Under the pieces are notes generated by a model. It was not told the origin of the DNA. It did no database searches and was given only the letters and a program-made list of their open reading frames with translations. Positions 5,805 to 20,094 of a stretch of 26,138 nt of DNA are shown piece after piece; within the stretch, counting starts at the first letter, position 1, and every line of letters starts with the position of its first letter. Origin of the DNA: a virus; IMG/VR virus record IMGVR_UViG_3300036861_000877, positions 1 to 26,138 of that record. One strand, given 5' to 3'. A program made the position numbers and the translations under genes.

Positions 5805-6082
5805 CACGGGCGCCCTCGAATGTGAGGGCGGTGGCCCGGGCGGTGAGAGCGTTGGGTCTCGGGCCTGAGCATGATGCGTTGGTGGCATTGGCGCGTTCGT
5901 TGGCGGTGGCGGTCGACATGAGCCTGGAGCAGGACGCGGGGTTGTGGCGTGAGTATCGCCAGGCGCTAAAGGCATTGGCTGAGGCGGGTGTGTCCGGTGG
6001 CGATGACGGTGGAGCAGCAGCATTTCTCGTCTCGATCTCGACACCTCGCCGAGCCGAGATGGGCGACTCCGAGACGTCCTGA
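5801..6082 (+). CDS. Terminase small subunit (probable)
   Basis: 93 aa from GTG 5801, in a GTGA overlap with the HNH stop. All-helical sequence with LVALARSLAVAVD and LWREYRQALKALAEAG, a pattern frequent in small terminases of actinobacteriophages. It lies between HNH and large terminase, the usual place. It would recognise the packaging site on phage DNA and recruit the large subunit. The last ~80 bases are read in two frames because the large subunit starts inside it. Assignment relies on position and composition, not on a clear motif. Confidence 0.7.
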   Translation: MTRAPSNVRAVARAVRALGLGPEHDALVALARSLAVAVDMSLEQDAGLWREYRQALKALAEAGVSGGDDGGAAAFLVSISTPRRAEMGDSETS

Positions 6083-7478
6083 GCGGCTGTCGTTCGGGGA
6101 CGGCATTGTGGCGGTGGCCCGCCAGTTGGGGTCGCCGTTGATGGCATGGCAGGAGCAGGTCGCGCTCGTCGGCGGCGAGTTGGTTGAGCATCCGTCCGGG
6201 ATATTGGTGCCTGCGTATCGGGAGGTCGTGTTCACCGTTCCTCGTCAGAACGGCAAGACGCTGCTCCTGTTGGCGTGGGAGCTGCAGCGAGCGTTGGGTT
6301 GGGGTGCGGCGCAACGGATCGCGTACTCGGCGCAGACGGGTGCGGATGCTCGCAAGAAGCTGCTCGAGGATCAGGTGCCGGTGTTGGAGCCGCGCCGGCG
6401 ACTGTTGGGGATCCGGACGATCCGGCGTGCGAACGGGAGTGAGGCGATCGAATTCCGCAACGGATCGCGGATCGGCTTGTTGGCGTCGACGGAGGACGCC
6501 GGCCACGGCAAGACGGTCGATCTCGCGGTGAAGGACGAGCTCTTCGCCGATGCGGATGATCGTCGGGACCAGACGTTGGTGCCGGCCATGGCGACCCGGC
6601 CGGCCGCGCAGGTGGTGGCATGTTCGACGGCGGGTACCGACGAGTCGCTGCCTTGGAACGCGGCTGTGGAGCGGGGCCGCGCCGCGGTTGATTCGGGGCG
6701 GTCGACGGGCACCGCGTATTTCGAATGGTCGGCGGTGGCGGACGCGGATGCGGATGATCCGGCGGTGTGGCGGTCGGCTATGCCGGCGTTGGGTCTGACG
6801 ATCGACCTCGAGGTGGTCCGTCACGCTCGCGCGACGCTCAAGGACGGCGAGTTCCGGCGGGCGTTCATGAACATTCCGACCCGGTCGGAAGTTCGGGTGA
6901 TCCCCGCTCAGATGTGGACGGCGGTGTGTTCCGAGACGGCGGTGCCGGACGGCAGTCTGGTGTTCGGGTTGGATGTGAATCCGGAACGATCGTCGGGGTC
7001 GATCGCGGTGGCGTCACGAGCGTCGTTGCCGGTGGTGGAGCTGGTCGAGCATCGGGCGGGGGTCGGCTGGCTGATCGACCGGGCCGCCGAGCTCGACCGC
7101 CGGCACGGTCCGACCGAGTGGTGTGTGGATGGTTCGGGGCCGGCCGGATCGTTGATCGCCGATCTCGAGCGGGCCGGACTGAACGTCCGGGCGTTCTCGT
7201 TGAAGGAGCTCGTCGCCGCGTCAGCCGGGTTCTACGACGCGGTGATCCAAACCCGGATCCGGGTGCGAAGTCACGCGGCGTTGGATGAGGCGGTCGCGGG
7301 TGCGGTGCGCCGCACGGTTGGGGATGCGTGGGCGTGGGCACGCCGGTCGGCTTCGGTGAACGTGTCGCCGTTGGTGGCTGCCACATTGGCGTTTGCGGGG
7401 GCGCGTCTCGATGTGGAGCCAGCCGGTCCGGCCCGGGTGATCCTGCTCGACGACTACCTCGACGACGATGAGGAGTGA
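6003..7478 (+). CDS. terL: Terminase large subunit
   Basis: 491 aa from ATG 6003 (GTG 5988 would add five). ATPase: Walker A PRQNGKT (80-86), Walker B-like region TVDLAVKDEL (171-180) with acidic Asp178-Glu179, and a coupling motif ACSTAGT (206-212). Nuclease: FGLDVNPE with Asp324 and CVDGSG with Asp376, the acidic residues of the RNase H-like fold, plus a late acidic segment (ALDEAV). Length is normal for the family. It pumps DNA into the prohead through the portal and cuts the concatemer. It overlaps the small subunit by 80 bases, which indicates coupled translation. Confidence 0.93.
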   Translation: MTVEQQHFSSRSRHLAEPRWATPRRPERLSFGDGIVAVARQLGSPLMAWQEQVALVGGELVEHPSGILVPAYREVVFTVPRQNGKTLLLLAWELQRALGWGAAQRIAYSAQTGADARKKLLEDQVPVLEPRRRLLGIRTIRRANGSEAIEFRNGSRIGLLASTEDAGHGKTVDLAVKDELFADADDRRDQTLVPAMATRPAAQVVACSTAGTDESLPWNAAVERGRAAVDSGRSTGTAYFEWSAVADADADDPAVWRSAMPALGLTIDLEVVRHARATLKDGEFRRAFMNIPTRSEVRVIPAQMWTAVCSETAVPDGSLVFGLDVNPERSSGSIAVASRASLPVVELVEHRAGVGWLIDRAAELDRRHGPTEWCVDGSGPAGSLIADLERAGLNVRAFSLKELVAASAGFYDAVIQTRIRVRSHAALDEAVAGAVRRTVGDAWAWARRSASVNVSPLVAATLAFAGARLDVEPAGPARVILLDDYLDDDEE

Positions 7479-7481
7479 ACC

Positions 7482-7661
7482 GTGGTACGTGCGTTCGCTG
7501 CCATCGTCGGTTCGTTGCGGCGTGCCTGGCTCGTCGAACTCGCCGGCGCCGGGCTGCTGATCGGCGGGTTGTATGCAGCGTGGGGGACGGCGGCGGCGCT
7601 GATCGGCGGTGGGGTCGCGTTGTTGCTCAAAGCGTTCGAGCTCGATGTCGGTGAAGCATGA
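7482..7661 (+). CDS. Small two-helix membrane protein
   Basis: 59 aa from GTG 7482, three bases after the terminase stop and ending in ATGA overlap with the portal. Two hydrophobic segments (LAGAGLLIGGLYAAW and AAALIGGGVALLL) joined by a short turn, with a charged ending. It is just short of 60 residues. Small membrane proteins between terminase and portal recur in actinophages, but the role is unknown. Confidence 0.7.
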   Translation: MVRAFAAIVGSLRRAWLVELAGAGLLIGGLYAAWGTAAALIGGGVALLLKAFELDVGEA

Positions 7662-9142
7662 CGGTCCTCAAGAAGCTGGTCGGCGGTCAACGTACGGTGC
7701 AGGCGACGACCTGGGGGACCTGGCCGGGTGACATGCCGGCGGGCGCATGGTCGGGTGTGTCGTTGGACAGCGCCCAGTCGGTACAGCAGCTCCTCACCGT
7801 GTACGGCTGCAACCGGTTCATCTGCGACGGGATTGCCACACTGCCGGTCGATGCCCTGCGTGATACGCCGGCCGGGACACTCGAGGTCACCAAGCCGGGA
7901 TGGCTGATCCAGCCGACCATCGACCTCGACTTCATCGCTTGGGTTACTCAGGTCTTGACGTCACTGCTGCTCGACGGCAACGCGTACTGCTGGATCCGCC
8001 GGTCGCCGCTCGCGCAGATCGAAGAGCTCGTCCCGCTGAACCCGGCGAAAGTCAAGGTGACCCGCGAGCAGGGCACGCGCGTGTACCGGATCGGCGGTCA
8101 GCCGATCGACCGGTATGACCTGCTGCACATCCCGGCGGTCATGTTTCCTGGCGCTGAGATCGGCCTGTCGCCGATCGAGGCCGCGCGCCAGACGGTCGGC
8201 AAGGGCATGGCGACCGAAGAGTTCGCCGCCCGGTTCTTCGGCCAGGGCCTGAACATGTCCGGGGTCATCGAGACGCAGGACGACATCACCGACGAATCGG
8301 CCCGCGCGATGGCGAACACATTCGCCCGCCGCCACTCCGGCAAGACCAAATCCCATCTCCCGGCCGTCCTGACACGGGGCGCGAAGTGGACAGCGACCGG
8401 CGTGACGAACGAACAGGCCCAGTTCCTGCAGACCCAGCAGTTCACCGCGGCGCAGATCTGCGCGTTCCTGTTCCTCATCGACCCGACCGAGTTCGGTGTG
8501 TCGATGGACAAAGGATCCAGCGTCACCTACGCGAACCTCGAGCAGCGCAACGCCCGTAAGGTACAGGTGACGTTCCTGCCATGGATCATCCGGATCGAGA
8601 ATGCGCTGTCGAGTCTGATCCGCCAGTCGAACCGTTACGTGAAGTTCAACGTCAACGGCCTGTTGCGTGCCGATCTGTCCAGCCGATACGAGTCGTACAA
8701 GACCGGCATCGAGGCTGGCTTCCTGTTGCCGAACGAGGCGCGCGACTTCGAGGATCTCCCGGCGCTCGACGGCGGCGACAGTTTCCCGGCACCGGCAACA
8801 CCGCCGGCACCTACGACGAACAGCGCACCGGTGATCCACAACCATGTGCAACCAGCACAGGCACCGGTCGTGAACAACCGGTTCGAGATGCCACCGACAC
8901 CGGCGGCGACAGTACACAACCACGTCTCGCCACCGGTCGTGAACAACCGCTTCGACGTTCCGGTCCCCGAGGTGCATGTCGATGCGCCGATCGTCACGGT
9001 CGAAGCGCCGGCGGTGACGGTTGCCGCGGCGGAGATCCCGGCGCCGGTCGTATCGGTTCTGCCCGCCCCGGAACGTTCGAAGCGTCTCGAATACAACGAG
9101 CTCGGCGACATCGTCCGGGTCGTCGTCGAAGAGGGGGACTAG
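7658..9142 (+). CDS. HK97-type portal protein with repetitive C-terminal extension
   Basis: 494 aa. The body (about 1-370) has the HK97 portal features: VYGCNRFICDGIATLPV, LTSLLLDGNAYCWIRR, EELVPLNPAKVKV, LHIPAVMFPGAEIGLSPIE, and the crown/wing region FFGQGLNMSGVIE. The dodecamer forms the DNA channel and terminase dock. From about residue 385 the protein becomes Pro/Val/Ala-rich: HNHV and PVVNNRF each occur twice, then VxVxAP runs, ending RSKRLEYNELGDIVRVVVEEG. Similar C-terminal tails ending in an 'R-x-DIVRV' type strand occur in actinophage portals. The insert is probably flexible or beta-structured inside the head. Confidence 0.9.
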   Translation: MTVLKKLVGGQRTVQATTWGTWPGDMPAGAWSGVSLDSAQSVQQLLTVYGCNRFICDGIATLPVDALRDTPAGTLEVTKPGWLIQPTIDLDFIAWVTQVLTSLLLDGNAYCWIRRSPLAQIEELVPLNPAKVKVTREQGTRVYRIGGQPIDRYDLLHIPAVMFPGAEIGLSPIEAARQTVGKGMATEEFAARFFGQGLNMSGVIETQDDITDESARAMANTFARRHSGKTKSHLPAVLTRGAKWTATGVTNEQAQFLQTQQFTAAQICAFLFLIDPTEFGVSMDKGSSVTYANLEQRNARKVQVTFLPWIIRIENALSSLIRQSNRYVKFNVNGLLRADLSSRYESYKTGIEAGFLLPNEARDFEDLPALDGGDSFPAPATPPAPTTNSAPVIHNHVQPAQAPVVNNRFEMPPTPAATVHNHVSPPVVNNRFDVPVPEVHVDAPIVTVEAPAVTVAAAEIPAPVVSVLPAPERSKRLEYNELGDIVRVVVEEGD

Positions 9143-10591: not shown

Positions 10592-12325
10592 ATGGCGTAC
10601 GCGAGCCCGACGAACACACTGTTCCCTGCCCCTTCTGTTGTCGGGTATGGCGCGAACAACCGGAAGCTCCAGGACACGCAGCTCGGCGCCCACGATGATC
10701 AGACGAAAGCCGACTACGGCACCGCCGGCGCGACGAATCCTTGGATTCTCTGCAAACCGCAAGCCTCGAACTCGACCCGTCAGGCGGACCCTCCACCCAC
10801 GACTGGCCAGGATTTCGGGTACGACGCGCTGCAAGCCGACATGAACGTCAGCGGTGTGAACGGTGCCCTATCAACCGACGCCCGCTGGCTGACCGGCGAC
10901 CGGACGTTCCATCTGAGCCTCAACAACTCCGCCGCCGATGTGGCACCCGGCGCGGGTGTCTGGCAGATCAAGGTGATGGAGTTCAAACGGGACTCGGCGG
11001 GGGCTCTCACCAACCTCAGCGTCACCGCGAAGGACATCCCGCTGACGGCCGGGAACCTGCCGGTCGGCAACATCGCGATGGACATCACGGTCACGACCGA
11101 CATCTCGGCGACCAAGTTCGAGGTCGACGAGGTCTACTACGTCGAGTTCTGGATGAAAGGCCAGGGGTTAGCGGTCACGGGCCGTAACGTCGCGCTCGGT
11201 GCCGGTACCGCTCCTGCGGTCGGCGGACAGGCCACGTCGTTCGCCTGTTCGCTTCGCATCGCGTTCCGACGTTCACCGACGACAGAGACAACGGCGACGC
11301 AGCCGGCCGCCGCTACGGTCAGCCGTGTCCTCGTGCTCGGCCGCACACGTACCGAAACGCTGACTGTCGCCGAGACGGTCACCCGGATCTACAACGGATC
11401 TCGCACCGTCACGGTCACGACGCCTACACAACCCACCGCCGATACCATCACTCGAGGCGGCTCAGGATTCAACCGTTCACCTAGCGCCGAAACGGTCGGG
11501 CCCGCGGCGGACACTGTCACACGCATCTACGGTGCGGTACGCAGCCGAACCGAAGCATTGACGCCGAGCGAGCTCATCACCCGCGTGTTCACCGGTGCCC
11601 GTACGGTGACCGAAACTGTCGGTACCGCGGCAGATGTCATCAGCCGGATCGTCAACTTCCCGCGGCTCATCACCGTGACGGTCGGCGCCGCAGCCGACAC
11701 GATCGCCCGAGTGTTCTCGGGTGCCCGGACCCGAACCGAAACCGTCGGTCCGGCCGCCGACACGGCGACCCACACGTTCACCGGGGCTCGTACGGTCAGC
11801 GAATCCTTGACTGCCGCCGACACAATTGCCCGCGCGTTCATCGGTGCCCGGACCGCCACCGTGCCGCTGAGTGCCGCGGCAGATGTCGTCACACGGCTCG
11901 TCACGTTCTTCCGGACCCGTACCGAGACGCTGTCGCTCAGCGACACGGTCGCGCGGGTCTTCACAGGTGCCCGGACCCGAACCGAGACAGTCGGTCCGGC
12001 CGCAGATTCCGCCACCCGGATCCTGACCGCGAACCGAACCATCGGCGAAGGGCCGGGCGACTATCCGCTCAACGACGGAGCTCGTGCCATCGCGGGGATC
12101 GTCAAAGACGAGGACACCGGCGCCGCCGTCTCCGGCGTGACCGTCTACCTGTTCCGTACCTCCGACCTCCAATACGTAGGTCGCAGCACCGTCACCGACG
12201 TCAACGGGAACTATTCGTTCCCGCGCGACACCGGCGACAGCAACACCTACTTCACGGTCGTGGCAACAGATGGCGGGGCACCCCCCCGCCATGGCATCTC
12301 CGACCAGGCACTCGTCCCGGCCTAA
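10592..12325 (+). CDS. Tandem-repeat structural protein with C-terminal carboxypeptidase-regulatory-like domain
   Basis: 577 aa. Residues 1-240 look like a beta-rich virion domain (ADVAPGAGVWQIKVMEFKRD, VDEVYYVEFWMKG). Residues about 245-485 are about a dozen tandem units of 20-21 residues with pattern R-T-x-T-E-T-V/L-x-x-A-A-D-T-V/I-x-R-x-F-x-G. Residues about 495-577 form a beta-sandwich like carboxypeptidase-regulatory or SdrD-B domains (GIVKDEDTGAAVSGVTVYLF, DVNGNYSFP). The layout (anchor, repeat shaft, end domain) is that of a fibre. Ser/Thr content makes it a conceivable glycan acceptor. Start context lacks a good Shine-Dalgarno. Family not recognised as a whole. Confidence 0.75.
   Translation: MAYASPTNTLFPAPSVVGYGANNRKLQDTQLGAHDDQTKADYGTAGATNPWILCKPQASNSTRQADPPPTTGQDFGYDALQADMNVSGVNGALSTDARWLTGDRTFHLSLNNSAADVAPGAGVWQIKVMEFKRDSAGALTNLSVTAKDIPLTAGNLPVGNIAMDITVTTDISATKFEVDEVYYVEFWMKGQGLAVTGRNVALGAGTAPAVGGQATSFACSLRIAFRRSPTTETTATQPAAATVSRVLVLGRTRTETLTVAETVTRIYNGSRTVTVTTPTQPTADTITRGGSGFNRSPSAETVGPAADTVTRIYGAVRSRTEALTPSELITRVFTGARTVTETVGTAADVISRIVNFPRLITVTVGAAADTIARVFSGARTRTETVGPAADTATHTFTGARTVSESLTAADTIARAFIGARTATVPLSAAADVVTRLVTFFRTRTETLSLSDTVARVFTGARTRTETVGPAADSATRILTANRTIGEGPGDYPLNDGARAIAGIVKDEDTGAAVSGVTVYLFRTSDLQYVGRSTVTDVNGNYSFPRDTGDSNTYFTVVATDGGAPPRHGISDQALVPA
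11335..12045 (+). repeat. Coding tandem repeats, 60-63 bp period (first protein)
   Basis: About 12 degenerate units. The best-conserved pair, 11720-11760 and 11966-12006, is nearly identical over 41 bases, indicating fairly recent duplication; others keep the protein pattern only. Confidence 0.8.
12270..12292. other. 9-bp perfect hairpin within a coding region
   Basis: ATGGCGGGG (12270-12278) is inverted at 12284-12292 (CCCCGCCAT) with a five-base loop; it contains a run of seven C. It lies near the end of the repeat-protein gene, 33 bases before its stop. Confidence 0.6.
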
Positions 12326-12334
12326 GGCGGCCCG

Positions 12335-13210
12335 ATGCCGCAACACCCCGACGTCTTCATCTCCACGCGGCTGACATCGAACGCAGCCGACGTCCTCATC
12401 TACACGTCCTCAGCCGGGACCGGCACGAACTACGCGCGAACCGTCACCGAGACTGTCGGTGCCGCGGCCGACACGGTCACGAGAGTGTTCGCGGGTGCGC
12501 GGACCACTACGGAGACGCTCGCCGCCGCCGAGACCATCTCGCGTGGCTTCATCGGCTCACGCACCGTTACCGAGACCGTCTCGTCGTCGCAGACGATCAC
12601 CCGCGCCCTCATCACGGCCCGAGCGAACAGCGAGTCCGTCGCCGTCAGCGACACGGTGTCACGCGTCTTCGCCGGTGCCCGCACAATCAGCGAGACCGTC
12701 TCGCTGTCTGAATCCATCGCGCGGGTCCTCGTCCTCGCCCGCACTCTCTCCGAGACGCTCACCGCGACCGACACGGTCAGCCGTCTCGTGTCCGGTACCC
12801 GAACCGTCACGGAGCTCGTCACCTTCGCCGAGACCGTCACTCGACTGTTTGTCGGGGCGCGGACAATCACCGAAACCGTCGGCCCGGCGGCCGACACGGT
12901 CACCCGTCAAATCACACCGGGTGCGGGGCAAGCGGAATCGTCGAGCAGCGCATCTGGCCGACTTCCGTATCCGCTCGGCCGAGCTGTACGACTGCCGGCG
13001 AAGTTCAAAAAGCCGCTACCTGAGGATGAATGGTTCAAGGTCAAAATCGACCTCGAAGCCAGGGAACTGGCCATCCTCGAGCGAGCAAAACGGCAGACCC
13101 GCGTTCGCGCCAGGCTGCACCGGCGGCGCACCATCACCAATCTCGTCGCATGCGGCGCATTGACGCCCATGTCATCGCCTGCGTCGGACTTTGAGGAGCC
13201 ACCAACATGA
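12335..13210 (+). CDS. Second tandem-repeat protein with basic helical C-terminus
   Basis: 291 aa from ATG 12335. After about 34 residues come eight 20-residue units (about 35-197) of the same RTxTETVxxAADTVTRVFxG pattern as the preceding protein, showing common descent. The remaining ~90 residues differ: a Ser-rich linker, Pro/Lys segment (RLPAKFKKPLPEDEWF), and a basic helix (LEARELAILERAKRQ, then RARLHRRRT) that could attach to DNA, head or another protein. It ends in ATGA overlap with the protease. Probable fibre/decoration protein; exact role unknown. Confidence 0.75.
   Translation: MPQHPDVFISTRLTSNAADVLIYTSSAGTGTNYARTVTETVGAAADTVTRVFAGARTTTETLAAAETISRGFIGSRTVTETVSSSQTITRALITARANSESVAVSDTVSRVFAGARTISETVSLSESIARVLVLARTLSETLTATDTVSRLVSGTRTVTELVTFAETVTRLFVGARTITETVGPAADTVTRQITPGAGQAESSSSASGRLPYPLGRAVRLPAKFKKPLPEDEWFKVKIDLEARELAILERAKRQTRVRARLHRRRTITNLVACGALTPMSSPASDFEEPPT
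12436..12920 (+). repeat. Coding tandem repeats, ~60 bp period (second protein)
   Basis: Eight units in register with those at 11335-12045, each starting with an Arg-Thr-like dipeptide and ending with an Arg plus hydrophobic/Gly motif. Confidence 0.8.
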
Positions 13211-13995
13211 CGATCACCGAACCGACGGAACAGGAACGGCAACGGCTCGCCCCCAAACGAGGCTTGGCGCCAATCGTGCGCGGCTACCTCGTCAGCGATG
13301 TCGAGATACGGGCGCAGGCCGGCGAGTCGACGCTCATCGACTTCGTCGGCCACGCATCCGTCTACGACAAGGGTTACGACATGTACGGCGGCCCCGATAA
13401 GGGCGGCTGGACTGAGTTCGTCGACGGCGGTGCCGGCAAGAAGACCTTGTCCGAGAATCCGGATGTCGCGTTCCTCGTCAACCATGAAGGCTTGACGCTC
13501 GCCCGTACCAAGGCGGGCACCCTGAAACTGTCGGAGGACAAGATCGGCCTCGCGGTCGCCGCGACGCTCGATACGCGGGTGTCGACGGTGAATGACATCG
13601 CCATCCTGATGGATGCCGGCGCGCTCGACGAGATGTCGTTCGCCTTTCGCATCACGAAACAGAAGTGGTTGGACGCGGACGGCGAAGAGGTGCCGTGGTG
13701 GGATCTGTCGGGCATCGAACGGCACATCTCCGAATACAACCTGCATCGTGGCGACGTCTCGATCGTCAACCAGGGCGCCAACCCGTACACCGACGCGAAG
13801 ATGCGGTCGCTCACCGAACTGTTGCGTGACGCCACCGCGCAGCCTGACGACCTCGACGAGGAAGAGCTCCGCCAGGCGGTCGCCTACCTCGAAGAGCTCC
13901 TCAACCGTGACGCCACCGACGCCGACCCGGCGATGCTCGTCACGATCAACCTGGCGCAACGCCGCCAGTTCGTCGCCAAACACGACTTCCTGTAA
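13207..13995 (+). CDS. Prohead maturation protease (HK97 gp4 / S78-like)
   Basis: 262 aa; a GAGGAGCC ribosome-binding site precedes ATG 13207, in ATGA overlap with the previous gene. Catalytic His93 in FLVNHEGLTLAR and nucleophile Ser144 in DEMSFAFRI are in the usual contexts; DVSIVNQGANPYTDA is the conserved strand after them. The C-terminal acidic helix (DDLDEEELRQAVAYLEELL) is probably self-cleaved or scaffold-binding. The enzyme digests the capsid delta domain after assembly. Protease followed by capsid is the HK97 order. Confidence 0.92.
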   Translation: MTITEPTEQERQRLAPKRGLAPIVRGYLVSDVEIRAQAGESTLIDFVGHASVYDKGYDMYGGPDKGGWTEFVDGGAGKKTLSENPDVAFLVNHEGLTLARTKAGTLKLSEDKIGLAVAATLDTRVSTVNDIAILMDAGALDEMSFAFRITKQKWLDADGEEVPWWDLSGIERHISEYNLHRGDVSIVNQGANPYTDAKMRSLTELLRDATAQPDDLDEEELRQAVAYLEELLNRDATDADPAMLVTINLAQRRQFVAKHDFL

Positions 13996-14143: not shown

Positions 14144-15454
14144 GTGACCGACATTCTCGAATACACGAAACGGCTCCGCGAGGAGCGGATGCGTCTCATC
14201 GACGAAGCCAAAGGCGTCTACGACGAGGCCATCGAAGCCAAACGGGCCGTCACCAGCGAAGAGACCGCCAAAGTCGATCAGCTCGACGCCCGCATCGATG
14301 AGATCGAAGCCGAAGTCCGCACCCTCGACGAGCGGGAACGCCGCGAACGTGAAGCGGCGACCAGCCGGGAAGCGTTCGAACGGCAACACGGCACCCAAGG
14401 CGCCCGCCGGCAGGTCGAGAACGAAGCAGAGATGATGCGTCGTTGGGCACGCGGCGAGCTCGGCAAGGAACTCGAAATCCCGATCGCCGGGGCAGCCGAA
14501 GAACTCCGGATGATCCGCGGTGGCGCCACCGCCGCCGACATCGCCGAATACCGGGCGCTCGCCTGGGACACCGGCAACGTCGCATCCGCGGTGCCAGTCA
14601 CCACCGCCCGGTCGTTGTACGAGATCCTCGAAGCAACGATCGCCATGTTCCGGGCGCCGACGACGAAGATCAACACGTCGTCGGGTGAGCAGATGAAGTT
14701 CCCGAAGATCACGGCACATGGCATCGCCACCCAGGTATCTGGTCAGGGCACCGCCCTCGCGGGTACCGATCCGGCGTTCAACTCGGTGGCCCTCGACGCG
14801 TTCAAGTACGGCGAGCTCGTCCGGATCGCCTCCGAAGTGATCAGCGACGCGGCGATCGACATCATCGGGTTCATCACCCGTGACGTCGGCCGTGCCCTCG
14901 GCCGCAACATCGACATCGACCTTGTCGTCGGATCCGGTACCGGAAAGCCGCAAGGTGTCATATCAGCGGCGATCACCGGCGCGTCAGGCACGATCGCCAC
15001 CGGCGGCTCACTCATCACGCCCACCTACGAGAACCTCGTCGACCTCGCCTACTCGGTGAACGACGCCTACCGGGCAGGCGGCAGTGCCGCGTGGTTGATG
15101 CGTGACGCGACCGCTGGTGTGCTCCGCAAGCTCCGTGATGGCGCCGGCGGCACCATCGGCGCCGTCCTGTGGGAACCGTCGCAGGTGTCCGGCATCCAGT
15201 TCAACCAGCCGGACCGCCTCCTCGGCTTCCCCGTCTACACCGACCCGAACGTCGCGTCGTTGGCGTCGAACGCGAAGGTGATGGTGTTCGGCGACTTCTC
15301 CGCCTACTACATCCGGACCGTCGGGCCGGTCGTCCTCGAACGTGACGACAGCCGGTTCTTCGACACGGACGAGACCGCGATTCGCGGCAAGTGGAGGGTC
15401 GACGGGGACGTCGTGGACGTCACGGCCTTGAACCTCTTGAAGCAGTCAGTCTGA
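14144..15454 (+). CDS. Major capsid protein, HK97 fold, with N-terminal delta domain
   Basis: 436 aa from GTG 14144, with AAAGGTG about five bases upstream; the frame is open further upstream, but only across the protease gene and repeat leader. Residues 1-100 are a charged coiled coil (KRLREERMRLIDEAK, DQLDARIDEIEAEV), the delta/scaffold domain removed by the protease. The rest follows the HK97 fold: WDTGNVASAVPVTTARSLYEIL, PTTKINTSSGEQMKFP, DIIGFITRDVGRALGRNIDIDLVVGSGTGKPQG (spread over about 240-275), and a C-terminal FGDFSAYYIRTVGPVVLERDD strand. It forms the icosahedral shell. Confidence 0.93.
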   Translation: MTDILEYTKRLREERMRLIDEAKGVYDEAIEAKRAVTSEETAKVDQLDARIDEIEAEVRTLDERERREREAATSREAFERQHGTQGARRQVENEAEMMRRWARGELGKELEIPIAGAAEELRMIRGGATAADIAEYRALAWDTGNVASAVPVTTARSLYEILEATIAMFRAPTTKINTSSGEQMKFPKITAHGIATQVSGQGTALAGTDPAFNSVALDAFKYGELVRIASEVISDAAIDIIGFITRDVGRALGRNIDIDLVVGSGTGKPQGVISAAITGASGTIATGGSLITPTYENLVDLAYSVNDAYRAGGSAAWLMRDATAGVLRKLRDGAGGTIGAVLWEPSQVSGIQFNQPDRLLGFPVYTDPNVASLASNAKVMVFGDFSAYYIRTVGPVVLERDDSRFFDTDETAIRGKWRVDGDVVDVTALNLLKQSV

Positions 15455-15565: not shown

Positions 15566-15730
15566 ATGCCTGTTCATCGTGTACCGGTCAGCGAGGTCGA
15601 GGCGTTCGTCGCCGATCTCGAGCAGCGTGAACGGATCGTCTCGACGGAAGTGGTGGGTGACGGTGCCGTGCTGATCTTCACGGAACCGAAGGATCAGCGG
15701 CGCGCGCCAGGTGAGCAGGAAACACGATGA
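15566..15730 (+). CDS. Small hypothetical protein
   Basis: 54 aa; ATG 15566 is used because the longer frame from 15512 would start inside the hairpin. The product has a helix-plus-strand look (VSEVEAFVADLEQ, then GDGAVLIFTEP), like a small alpha/beta binding domain. It ends in ATGA overlap with the glycosyltransferase. Upstream it shares CCCCCCTGCGAG with the leader of the tail chaperone gene. Function unknown. Confidence 0.62.
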   Translation: MPVHRVPVSEVEAFVADLEQRERIVSTEVVGDGAVLIFTEPKDQRRAPGEQETR

Positions 15731-17628
15731 AGTTCCTGCTACACGGCAACGCGCCCCATGTCCGTACCGGGTATGGGGTGCAGATCGCCAACCTCGCGGA
15801 ACGGCTCGTCCGTGCCGGCCATGACGTCGCGATCTCCTCCACCTACGGTCAGCAGGGCGGCGCCGGCATATGGATCATCCCATCCACCCAACAACCCGTC
15901 GTCGTCTACCCCTGCGGCTACGAAGTGAACTCGAACGACATCATCCACGGCCATGCCCAACACTTTTTCGATGGCGACCCGAAGGGCGGATGGATCATCA
16001 CCTGCCTCGACGTATGGGCGATGCCGAACCCGCTCCTCGCCGACTATCAGGTCGCGGCGTGGACACCGGTCGACCATTTCCCCGCGCCACCTGATGTGAT
16101 CAAGTTCTTCCATCGGACCGGCGCCATCCCCGTGACGATGAGCCGGTTCGGGGAACGACTGCTCTTCAATGCCGGGCTCGACCCTGTCTACATTCCGCTG
16201 TCGGTCGACACCCGGGTTTACAAGCCGACCCCGATGCTCACTCTTGCTGACGGCCGTGAATTGACCGCCCGCGCGTTGTGCGGTATCCCTGAGGATGCGT
16301 TCGTGGTCGGCATGGTCGGGATGAATAAAGGGTGGGCGCGGGACCGTAAAGGGTTCAATGAGGCGTTCCGGGCGTTCGGCCGGTTCTGGGTTGCTCATCC
16401 GGAAGCGGTTCTTTACATGCATGCGGAGAAGTTCGGTGGGGCGGAAGGGATCAACCTCGTCGAGCTCGCCGAGCATGCCGCCGTTCCTGAGCATGCGTTG
16501 ATCTGGTGCGACCAGTATGCCTACCGACTCGGTGTCCCCGCCGAGGTGATGGCCGCGACCTACACGGCCATGGACGTGCTGCTCGCCCCTTCGCACGGCG
16601 AAGGGTTCTGTGTCCCGCTCATCGAGGCGCAGGCATGCGGGACGCCGATCATCGCGACGGACTTCTCGTCGCAACCGGAACTTGTCGGCGCCGGGTGGAT
16701 GGTGACCGGCCAGCCGGAATGGGATCCGGCGCAGCATGCGTCGTACGTATGCCCGTCGATCGTCGACGTGCTCGACAAGCTCGAGGAGGCATACGCCGCC
16801 GACCGAGAAGCGATGGGCGAGACCGCGATCACGTTCGCGTCGGGCTACGACGCCGACCGGGTGTTCGCCGACTATTGGCAGCCGTTCCTCGCCCGCCTCG
16901 AACCTGCGCCGATACCGCCACCGAGCTATGACCGCCAGCCGATCCCGGAGACCGACGGGGTGGCGGTCATCGTCCCGGCGATGCGTCCCGAGAATCTCGT
17001 TCGGCTCATCGGCTCGTTCAATGAGACGAACGACGGATCCGCCGAACTCGTGATCGTCGCCGACAGGCAGTCGGGGATCAGCGGCGATGTGATCCTCGAC
17101 GAAGGTCGGATAACGAGCTTCGCGGAGAAGGTGAACGCCGGCTTCGAAGCAACCCTCCACTCATGGGTCTTGCTCGTCGGCGACGACGTCGTGTTCCGGC
17201 CCGGCTGGATCAAGGCGGCCCGCACGCTCTCCGACCGGTTCGACGTGATCGGCACCAACGACACTGCTGGGGAACCGAAGAACCCGGATGTCGCCGCGGG
17301 TCGCCACGCCGACCACTTCTTCGTGCGGCGTGCGTACGTCGAAGCGGAGGGCGGCTGCCTCGACGGGCCTGGCGAGCTCGCGCCGACCGTGTACGGCCAT
17401 TGGCACGTCGATCGGGAAATGATCGAGCTCGCCCGGGCCCGCGGGGTGTTCACCCCCTGCCTCGAATCCGTCGTCGAACATCTCCATCCCGGATACGACG
17501 GTCGCGAAGACCTACGCCAAGCCGACGCGGTCTATCTGAAAGCGCTCGACACTGCGGAGGCGGACGCGAAGACGTTCCGGTCGCGGTTGCCGTTGATCCA
17601 CATGCAGCGGGTCGGGGCGAGACGGTGA
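15727..17628 (+). CDS. Bifunctional glycosyltransferase: GT4-like plus GT2-like domains
   Basis: 633 aa. Residues 1-385 are GT-B: N-terminal KFLLHGNAPHVRTGYGVQ with the glycine loop, and a C-terminal Rossmann half with PSHGEGFCVPLIEAQACGTP (from about 287), the E-x7-E nucleotide-sugar motif of GT4. From about 413 a GT-A domain begins (VAVIVPAMRPENLVRLIGSF), with VGDDV (about 485, the D-x-D-like metal site) and HFFVRRAYVEAEGG, WHVDREM and HLHPGYD late motifs. Both halves look intact. It would transfer sugars from nucleotide sugars to an acceptor, plausibly a virion protein since it sits just after the capsid gene. Sugar and acceptor cannot be read from the sequence. Confidence 0.88.
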   Translation: MKFLLHGNAPHVRTGYGVQIANLAERLVRAGHDVAISSTYGQQGGAGIWIIPSTQQPVVVYPCGYEVNSNDIIHGHAQHFFDGDPKGGWIITCLDVWAMPNPLLADYQVAAWTPVDHFPAPPDVIKFFHRTGAIPVTMSRFGERLLFNAGLDPVYIPLSVDTRVYKPTPMLTLADGRELTARALCGIPEDAFVVGMVGMNKGWARDRKGFNEAFRAFGRFWVAHPEAVLYMHAEKFGGAEGINLVELAEHAAVPEHALIWCDQYAYRLGVPAEVMAATYTAMDVLLAPSHGEGFCVPLIEAQACGTPIIATDFSSQPELVGAGWMVTGQPEWDPAQHASYVCPSIVDVLDKLEEAYAADREAMGETAITFASGYDADRVFADYWQPFLARLEPAPIPPPSYDRQPIPETDGVAVIVPAMRPENLVRLIGSFNETNDGSAELVIVADRQSGISGDVILDEGRITSFAEKVNAGFEATLHSWVLLVGDDVVFRPGWIKAARTLSDRFDVIGTNDTAGEPKNPDVAAGRHADHFFVRRAYVEAEGGCLDGPGELAPTVYGHWHVDREMIELARARGVFTPCLESVVEHLHPGYDGREDLRQADAVYLKALDTAEADAKTFRSRLPLIHMQRVGARR

Positions 17629-18377
17629 CCGTCTTTGACACGTTCATGATCAACAACGAGCTCGACATGCTGGAATGTCGTCTCGTCGAACTGGAAGACG
17701 TACCGAACCTAATGCACATCGCCGTCGAGGCCGACGTCGACCACCAGGATCATCCCAAGCCCTACTACCTCACCGAGAATCGTGATCGGTTCGCACCCTG
17801 GAAAGAACGTGTGGTCGTCGTACGGGTTACCGGCCTGCCATCCGCCGTTGACGCGCCGGATCCATGGGCACGCGAACATGCCCAACGTGAACATGTTGCC
17901 GACGCTCTCGGCTACGCCGCGGCGGACGATGTGGTGTTGCACGGCGATATCGACGAGATCCCCACCGCGCTCGTCGCACGTAACATCCGTCCGCAAGGCA
18001 TCGTCGCTCTCGAGCAGCGAGGCCATTTCTGGTCGTGCCGCTGGCAGTATCCGATCCCATGGCGCGGCACCGTCGCCGGCCGGGCCGGTGATATCACCTC
18101 GTTCGCTCGGATGCGTGACGCCCGCAACGTCGCCAAACCGCTCCCCGATGCCGGGTGGCATCTCTCCTGGCTCGGCGGCCCCGATATCGCCATGGCGAAG
18201 ATTGGGTCGTTCTGCCATCCGGAGGTCCGGGATCGGATCATCAAGGGTCTTGCCGACAACCAGTTCCTGCGCGACGGCGTCCATGTCGACGGCGTCAAGA
18301 TGCAGCGTTGCGAGATCGACCGGACCTTCCCCCGCTACGTGTACGAGGGCCGGTGCCCTGATTCATGGACACTGTGA
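17625..18377 (+). CDS. GT17-like glycosyltransferase
   Basis: 250 aa from GTG 17625 in GTGA overlap with the previous stop; the frame is open further upstream, but only inside the first transferase. Family 17 (N-acetylglucosaminyltransferase III-like) hallmarks are present: VFDTFMINNELDMLECRL, IAVEAD, ENRDRFAPWKERVV, REHAQREHV, VLHGDIDEIP (about 104-113, acidic metal-binding motif), and LSWLGG with KIGSF late. The family adds N-acetylglucosamine-type sugars in eukaryotes; bacterial and phage members have varied substrates. It overlaps the methyltransferase start by 13 bases, so all three cassette genes are translationally linked. Confidence 0.85.
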   Translation: MTVFDTFMINNELDMLECRLVELEDVPNLMHIAVEADVDHQDHPKPYYLTENRDRFAPWKERVVVVRVTGLPSAVDAPDPWAREHAQREHVADALGYAAADDVVLHGDIDEIPTALVARNIRPQGIVALEQRGHFWSCRWQYPIPWRGTVAGRAGDITSFARMRDARNVAKPLPDAGWHLSWLGGPDIAMAKIGSFCHPEVRDRIIKGLADNQFLRDGVHVDGVKMQRCEIDRTFPRYVYEGRCPDSWTL

Positions 18378-19444
18378 CCGTCCCGGTCTTCACGGAAGAC
18401 TGGTTTGGGGAGGCGTCGCAGGAGGCGCTCGCCGATCTGTATCGGCGGGTCGCTCATCTCGACGGTGACATTGTCGAGGTCGGGTCGTGGGAGGGCCGGT
18501 CGACGATTGTGCTTGCGAACGCGGCGGCGCCGGCGCTGGTGCATGCGGTCGATACCTGGGAAGGGTCGCCGGGTGAGATCAGCGCCGGACTCGCCGCCGA
18601 ACGTGACGTGTACGCGACGTTCGTCGCCAACATCGAAGCGGCGACCGCGGGGAACGTCGAGGCGCACCGATCTGATTGGCGTGCTTACTTCGCTGACCAT
18701 CGCGCGCCGGTCCGGTTCGTGTTCATCGATGCCGCCCATACTTACGAGGAGGTGGCCGACAACATCGCGGCTGTCCTGCCGCTGCTGGTGCGGGGCGGGA
18801 TCATCTGCGGCGACGACATGCATCATCGTCCCGTCCGTGAAGCGGTCCTCGCCCTGCTTCCCGACGCTCAGGCAATTGCCACGTTGTGGTGCTGGCAGAA
18901 GCCGACGCTCGCCGAGCGGTACCGGCAGTTGTGCAGCACGCCCTCGGACATTTACGAGCATCTCCCGACGTTCGTGCGGCTCGTCGAACGGCTGGATGCA
19001 CAGCATGTGATTGAGCTCGGTACTCGTACCGGCGTTTCCACGGTCGCCTGGCTTTACGGGCTCGACAAGACCGGCGGGCGGCTGACATCGGTCGACATCG
19101 ACCCGGCCCCGGACATCGGCGGGTGGCCACACTGGACGTTCCGCCAATCCGACGATCTCGCTCCCGAGCTACTCGCCGAACTCGAGCCGGCCGACATCGT
19201 GTTCATCGACACATCGCACCAGTACGACCACACACTGATGGAGCTGCACGTGTACCGCCATCTTGTACGGTCCGGCGGTCTGCTCGTATGCCATGACACC
19301 GAACTTGCCCGCCCCCAGGGCACGCCGCCGGGTGACCCGCAGTTCCCGGTGAAACGAGCCATCGAGGCGTTCTGTAGAGCCGAGCAGCTCGACGCGACGT
19401 TCGACCTTCGCTGCTGGGGGTTGGCAACAATCGAGGTGCCGTAA
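18365..19444 (+). CDS. Tandem-duplicated class I methyltransferase (Methyltransf_24-like x2)
   Basis: 359 aa comprising two homologous SAM-dependent halves. Half 1: IVEVGSWEGRST (about 36-47, motif I) and VFIDAAHTYEEV with GGIICGDD. Half 2: VIELGTRTGVST (from about 215) and VFIDTSHQYDHT with SGGLLVCHDTE. The shared order shows internal duplication. Such enzymes often methylate glycans or sugar rings in cell-surface or glycan-modification clusters. Here they follow two glycosyltransferases, so O-methylation of the transferred sugar is the natural guess. It ends TAATG into the head-tail connector gene, placing the cassette inside the morphogenesis operon. Confidence 0.85.
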   Translation: MDTVTVPVFTEDWFGEASQEALADLYRRVAHLDGDIVEVGSWEGRSTIVLANAAAPALVHAVDTWEGSPGEISAGLAAERDVYATFVANIEAATAGNVEAHRSDWRAYFADHRAPVRFVFIDAAHTYEEVADNIAAVLPLLVRGGIICGDDMHHRPVREAVLALLPDAQAIATLWCWQKPTLAERYRQLCSTPSDIYEHLPTFVRLVERLDAQHVIELGTRTGVSTVAWLYGLDKTGGRLTSVDIDPAPDIGGWPHWTFRQSDDLAPELLAELEPADIVFIDTSHQYDHTLMELHVYRHLVRSGGLLVCHDTELARPQGTPPGDPQFPVKRAIEAFCRAEQLDATFDLRCWGLATIEVP

Positions 19445-20094
19445 TGGCCGATGCGACCGTCGATCTCGTAACCCTCGCCGAGATCAAACCCGGGCTGAAC
19501 ATCACCGCCACCGACACTACCTACGACACTGAGCTCGCCACCGTCATCACGGCCGTCTCCCAACGATTCCGAGATGTGTGCGGCGCGATCATCAACACCA
19601 CGTATACCGACGAGGCAAACGACGGTGGCGCCAGCGACATCGTCCTGCGGCGAGCGTCAGCAGTCTCCGACACCGTAACGACCACGATTGGCGCGGTGAA
19701 GGAATACGACACGTCGGGTGCCCTTACCACCCTCACCGCCGAAACGGTCACCATCAAACCCGACACCGGCTACCTGCTCTCCAACGAGATCGGCGAACGC
19801 AATCGGCTCATCCGCCGCTCCGCCGCCGGCGACGCCTACTTCGCCTGGGGACGAGCCAACATCCTCGTCACCTACACGACCGGTCGGGCCGCCAACACCG
19901 CCGCTGTCGCCGCCAACTTCAAGCAGGCGGCGATCATCACCATCAACCACATCTGGTCGTCGTTGGGTGCCCAATCCGGCGCGGCGCGGCCCGGCCAGGT
20001 CGACGGGCTCGCCTACGGCATCCCGAGCTTCTCCATCCCGAAAGCTGCACTCGATCTCATCCGCGACGAGGTCAACCCGCCGGGCATCGGCTGA
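19444..20094 (+). CDS. Head-tail connector protein (gp6-like)
   Basis: 216 aa starting in a TAATG overlap. The start is typical of the HK97 gp6/phage connector family (LVTLAEIKPGLNITATDTTYDTELATVITAVS: helix-turn-helix region), though an inserted beta-rich stretch (about 55-140) makes it longer than the usual ~100 residues. The end (FKQAAIITINHIWSSLG, then IPSFSIPKAALDLI) is also family-like. It would form the ring under the portal. Confidence 0.8.
   Translation: MADATVDLVTLAEIKPGLNITATDTTYDTELATVITAVSQRFRDVCGAIINTTYTDEANDGGASDIVLRRASAVSDTVTTTIGAVKEYDTSGALTTLTAETVTIKPDTGYLLSNEIGERNRLIRRSAAGDAYFAWGRANILVTYTTGRAANTAAVAANFKQAAIITINHIWSSLGAQSGAARPGQVDGLAYGIPSFSIPKAALDLIRDEVNPPGIG

Follow-up and report, generated by a model that had tools for sequence, protein, structure and literature searches.

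A glycosyltransferase-methyltransferase cassette coupled to one lineage of major capsid proteins probably decorates the phage head

Virion glycosylation in tailed phages has, within the literature found, been shown for only few mycobacteriophages. In these phages, the capsid and the tail tube are both modified (PMC12363180; PMC12619734), and the reported glycans sit at C-termini (PMC12619734). Glycosylation of virions by phage glycosyltransferases was reported by Freeman 2023, as cited in PMC12363180 and PMC12619734. For the cassette of cluster O (Corndog gp35-38; Catdawg gp33-36) a modification of the capsid was proposed (PMC4351075), and glycosylation of virion proteins was later reported for Corndog, according to the citation in PMC12363180. 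Beside these, the Pontimonas phage phiPsal1 (MG835450) possesses the order major capsid protein (MCP), GT4, methyltransferase (opposite strand), GT2 and neck, and the genes concerned (010-012) are not discussed in the phiPsal1 paper. In Microcystis phage Mae-JY09 (PP395641) the MCP gene is followed by a small gene, GT4, a GT2-like gene, an epimerase, one more gene and the adaptor.

The sequence analysed here (the window) covers a complete IMG/VR virus record, which is a linear fragment of 26,138 bases. PHROG matches revealed the genes for terminase (5988-7478), portal (7658-9142), protease (13207-13995) and an HK97-type MCP (14144-15454 with approximate start, plus strand; phrog_10, 4e-57). 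Further downstream, a head-tail adaptor (19444-20094, plus strand; phrog_442, 1e-15) is followed by tail genes. Between MCP and adaptor, the initial annotation had placed a glycan cassette of three overlapping genes at 15727-19444, and both this position and the genes themselves were confirmed, since all three frames are open and the junctions are real. An ATGA link at 15727-15730 combines the stop of a 54-aa ORF (15566-15730) with the start of a GT4-GT2 fusion glycosyltransferase (15727-17628; 633 aa), and a GTGA link at 17625 joins the latter to a GT17 glycosyltransferase with a GTG start (17625-18377; 250 aa). This gene overlaps by 13 bases (18365-18377) with that of a double class-I methyltransferase (P0003; 18365-19444; 359 aa), and TAATG at 19441-19445 forms the junction to the adaptor gene; all of these genes lie on the plus strand. 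The enzyme classes named at that time agree with the Pfam domains, but the 54-aa ORF, which is conserved in relatives, had been overlooked. As in virion-glycosylation cassettes of the Corndog/Che8 kind, the glycosyltransferases are encoded by the phage, inside or next to the block of virion genes.

The comparison with cluster O was made with Catdawg and Firecracker, and the likeness is that genes for one O-methyltransferase and three glycosyltransferases follow each other closely within the head operon. However, the order in cluster O is portal-MT-GT-GT-GT-protease, whereas the cassette described here lies between MCP and adaptor, and no GT4, GT17 or fusion was found in the cluster O cassette. 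In searches with sequence profiles alone, the Catdawg glycosyltransferases gave no significant HMM match to those of the cassette, and the Catdawg methyltransferase showed a weak similarity (E about 1e-4). The phiPsal1 genes occupy the same MCP-to-neck slot. Their GT4 is homologous to that of the cassette (1e-125) and their GT2 weakly so (9e-4), but both are separate genes, and the methyltransferase on the opposite strand belongs to another subfamily. No GT17 match was obtained for phiPsal1, whereas the related IMG/VR contigs L257, L259 and L260 have one; in these contigs the MCP gene is followed by GT4 and, further downstream, by GT17, which is perhaps an intermediate between phiPsal1 and this clade. 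In Mae-JY09, GT4 (about 1e-127) and, weakly, the GT2-like protein (8e-5) match the cassette families but are likewise unfused; the phage has an NAD-dependent epimerase and lacks GT17 and a homologous methyltransferase. Tetrasphaera phage TJE1 and Synechococcus phage S-EIVl also gave GT4 matches, which were disregarded because they are not located behind a capsid gene. As far as the literature search shows, the combination of a fused GT4-GT2 with GT17 and CmcI-type methyltransferases, its slot and its near-fixation in one MCP lineage are new. The kind of system is already known from mycobacteriophages.

The fusion protein matches PHROG 2170, and its GT4 half (about residues 1-390) matches Glycos_transf_1 (2e-11) and Glyco_trans_1_4 (3e-11) in Pfam. 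With an EX7E pair (E292/E300) that is invariant in the alignment and a GT-B fold, this half corresponds to CAZy family GT4. The structure search proposed with the initial annotation confirmed the fold: in the model of the fusion (pLDDT 90) the GT4 half matches retaining GT-B enzymes, and Foldseek returned MshA first (9e-18), followed by glycosyltransferase 3oy2 of chlorovirus NY2A. The latter, which matches the GT4 domain model with 5.5e-17 and a TM of 0.76 on the target, belongs to the capsid-glycosylation enzymes of chloroviruses; this is a similarity of fold only, and, unlike this phage, chloroviruses are eukaryotic algal viruses. Chloroviruses glycosylate their own MCP. For the second half (about residues 410-630), the match to Glyco_tranf_2_3 (0.0046; 17.4 bits) lies below the cut-off of 27, so that it is referred to as GT2-like only, on the basis of this weak match and a conserved acidic motif. 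The assignment is strengthened by the residues D486-D487, D562 and H585, which are invariant in 29 aligned relatives. The two halves are also encoded as a single reading frame in 34 of 35 relatives.

The GT17 protein matches Glyco_transf_17 (PF04724, 3e-19) with 69.6 bits at a curated cut-off of 26, and its DxDE motif (D108, D110, E111) is invariant in the alignment. This family is best known from the branching of eukaryotic N-glycans. The model (pLDDT 96) has a GT-A-type fold, in agreement with the class assigned initially, and viral GT17 models match it at a TM of 0.85. Since many GT-A and nucleotidyltransferase folds were tied in VIA-align (Z 9.3-10.5), neither a single relative nor a sugar donor can be named for this enzyme. 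A PDB sequence search revealed no relative of GT17, and no solved GT17 member was recognised among the VIA-align matches listed, which excludes nothing. Donor and acceptor are not readable from the predicted structures of the fusion and GT17. The "initiation/extension-type" roles ascribed earlier to the transferases, like any sugar identity, found no support. In Gordonia phage GMA2, a structural match of GT17, no gene in the first 50 kb is annotated as a glycosyltransferase. Distant viral contigs (L052-L082) contain GT17 genes in a different context, often as tandem pairs, with GT4 on the opposite strand.

P0003 comprises two Methyltransf_24 stretches (PF13578, 6e-34; 117.4 bits versus a cut-off of 26.3), and its C-terminal half is RMNT_CmcI-like (PF04989, 7e-10; 39.4 bits versus a cut-off of 23.2). 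With both models above their cut-offs, it belongs to the class-I O-methyltransferases. A search with P0003 against INPHARED found nothing. The two methyltransferase domains (MTn and MTc) lie in one frame in 17 of 32 relatives and occur elsewhere as separate genes or as a single domain; MTn is absent from some relatives, and in L094, L230, L242 and L243 the order is reversed, with MTc before MTn.

Scans of IMG/VR with GT17 and methyltransferase yielded about 45 contigs which, as far as each of them extends, have the order MCP, GT4, GT2, GT17, (MTn), MTc and adaptor. To avoid picking only carriers of the cassette, a search starting from the MCP was also run. Of the 66 MCP-related contigs that continue for 1.1 kb or more beyond the MCP gene, 65 carry GT4 as the next gene, and GT4, GT2, GT17 and MTc are all present in each of the 29 that continue for 5.5 kb or more; it has to be considered that cassette-bearing contigs supplied most of the MCP query alignment. 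Seven further contigs have an MCP that is only remotely related (28-38% identity over the segment matched), and none of them possesses the cassette. Many of the MCP-related contigs are near-duplicates, and the MCPs were therefore clustered at 90% identity, which gave 42 clusters with GT4 downstream and 4 without it (three remote MCPs and L131). L131 (7309-8592) is the single close MCP relative with sufficient downstream sequence in which no GT4 could be detected within the 1.3 kb that follow the MCP gene. Conversely, a search that started from the GT4-GT2 fusion gave an MCP upstream in all 59 loci that are long enough to show one, a set made up of GT4-GT2 loci, phiPsal1-type GT4 loci and MAG contigs. 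As essentially every member carries the cassette, comparison phages without it hardly exist in the MCP clade. Of the two cassette-bearing MAG contigs, one is labelled Actinomycetota and one Gammaproteobacteria, and either is possibly misbinned; the cultured relative nearest by its portal infects a Microbacteriaceae host.

The cassette enzymes are under purifying selection, with dN/dS values of 0 to 0.44 between close pairs for all cassette genes. These values of at most about 0.44, together with the fact that 65 of 66 MCP-related contigs conserve the arrangement, exclude chance. In all 13 relatives inspected, GT2 and GT17 overlap at their junction by 1 or 4 bases. Among 20 non-redundant loci, Mantel correlations with the MCP distances were higher for GT2 (r 0.79) and GT17 (0.78) than for the protease (0.52), to which GT4 (0.56) and MTc (0.48) were similar. 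In comparison to distant relatives, portal, MCP and cassette retain an identity of 44-68%. For the adaptor, tube and tail genes there are short matches or none, so that similarity drops right after the cassette. As judged from these sequence comparisons, the retained identity and the co-divergence with the MCP favour the head over the tail as the probable target. The tight linkage to the MCP could also stem in part from co-inheritance of the head block rather than from function.

Almost every phage with a related capsid carries this block at this position, which makes it very probable that the cassette decorates the virus particle, and we are highly confident that it modifies the virion in some way. 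That a glycan is made for the virion, as proposed in the initial annotation, is now better supported by the reciprocal linkage to the MCP, the homologues in the same slot, the lack of membrane parts and searches of 17 records that found neither GtrA nor a thymidylate-synthase-type hydroxymethylase; for the target, the proposal still falls short of proof. It is likely that this late-operon cassette decorates the head with an O-methylated oligosaccharide and that the acceptor belongs mainly to the head, above all the MCP. The small ORF, GT4-GT2, GT17 and the methyltransferases would be translationally coupled just behind the MCP gene, and, because of this coupling, enzymes and capsid would be produced together. 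The fused GT4 and GT2 domains and GT17 would work in the cytosol and add sugars from nucleotide-sugars of the host, and the methyltransferase domains would O-methylate the glycan. The product would be a short oligosaccharide with methyl groups, attached to a virion protein and most likely to the MCP. In this scheme, we infer the order of action, the sugars used, the methylation of the sugar rather than of the protein, the MCP as acceptor and the benefit, which may be shielding, stability or adsorption. It counts against this explanation that no obvious Ser/Thr-rich tail was detected at the C-terminal end of the MCP, in contrast to the C-terminal glycans reported from mycobacteriophages (PMC12619734), and that the Corndog-type transferases show no detectable homology to those of the cassette. 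A further-reaching reading, whose chances we consider slightly below even, is that of an obligate, MCP-coupled coat of methylated oligosaccharides throughout the clade, in which a self-contained multi-domain cassette acts with a small partner protein not described before (15566-15730) and capsid and glycan machinery evolve as a unit.

The cassette might instead glycosylate mainly another virion protein than the MCP, such as the tail tube, head-fibre-like proteins of the portal-protease gap or the two Thr-rich repeat proteins encoded at 10592-13210 (plus strand), which contain 15-16% Thr as well as repeats of about 20 aa and are candidate alternative acceptors in this phage. The combined Ser/Thr content of the repeat proteins is 22-25%, the C-terminus of the tail tube contains 8 Ser/Thr in 20 residues, and the mycobacteriophages set a precedent with a modified tail tube beside the capsid. 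However, within the clade the tube and tail genes have been replaced but the cassette has remained linked to the MCP, and the repeat proteins have no match in relatives and therefore cannot be the general acceptor, which makes this explanation unlikely. The degenerate repeat unit of about 20 aa reads RTxTETVGPAADTVTRxFxGA, and the slot between portal and protease, in which these proteins lie, is filled in relatives by a tail-fibre-like or other variable protein.

GT4, GT2 and methyltransferases also occur in surface-polysaccharide clusters, and one relative with a tyrosine integrase makes lysogeny possible, so that the cassette might alter surface glycans of the host for receptor masking or superinfection exclusion, like the phage gtr clusters. 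Such a function is very improbable for a cassette that in the relatives, too, immediately follows the MCP gene. The marks of gtr seroconversion clusters are a GtrA flippase and membrane-bound transferases. GtrA was not found in 17 records, several of them fragments, in which the positive controls worked, and the cassette enzymes are soluble, with no membrane-like stretch in any of them. The name of the PHROG closest to P0003, "DNA methyltransferase", and the ability of phage glycosyltransferases to glycosylate modified DNA bases (Pyle 2024, as cited in PMC12619734) would fit a hypermodification of phage DNA with a glycan, but this is hardly credible in view of the RMNT_CmcI match, the absence of a [DNS]PP[YFW] motif from P0003, the location in the head operon and the failure to find a thymidylate-synthase-type hydroxymethylase in 17 records, several of them fragments, with working controls. 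A search for Tet/JBP in these partly fragmentary records also gave no match, but its control was silent as well.

Decoration of the head, as the preferred explanation, has consequences beyond this phage. The cassette is nearly universal in one MCP lineage and occurs in dozens of environmental contigs, which suggests that capsids coated with glycans are a common phenomenon in nature, and GT17 becomes a candidate enzyme for capsid glycans in phages. Test systems are provided by the MCP-cassette pairing, by members that naturally lack one methyltransferase domain and by the fused versus unfused state of GT4 and GT2. Some clade members are probably temperate, as the tyrosine integrase mentioned above (L182:16052-17194; PF00589, 6.9e-24) lies at the end of a 34-kb relative.

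The 54-aa ORF has no PHROG match, but an s54-like small ORF was found in 81 of 91 MCP-GT4 intervals (e.g. L003:5307-5471 and L094:5288-5434). These relatives align with high divergence and follow a pattern of about MPVHRVPxxxLxxxLxxLExxGExxVxVxxxGxxxVVTxxxETR. In some relatives, Cys/His-rich ORFs, which by eye only resemble HNH-type homing endonucleases, are located between MCP and GT4 (starts at L031:2812, L099:1970, L129:7216, L149:932 and L158:2592).
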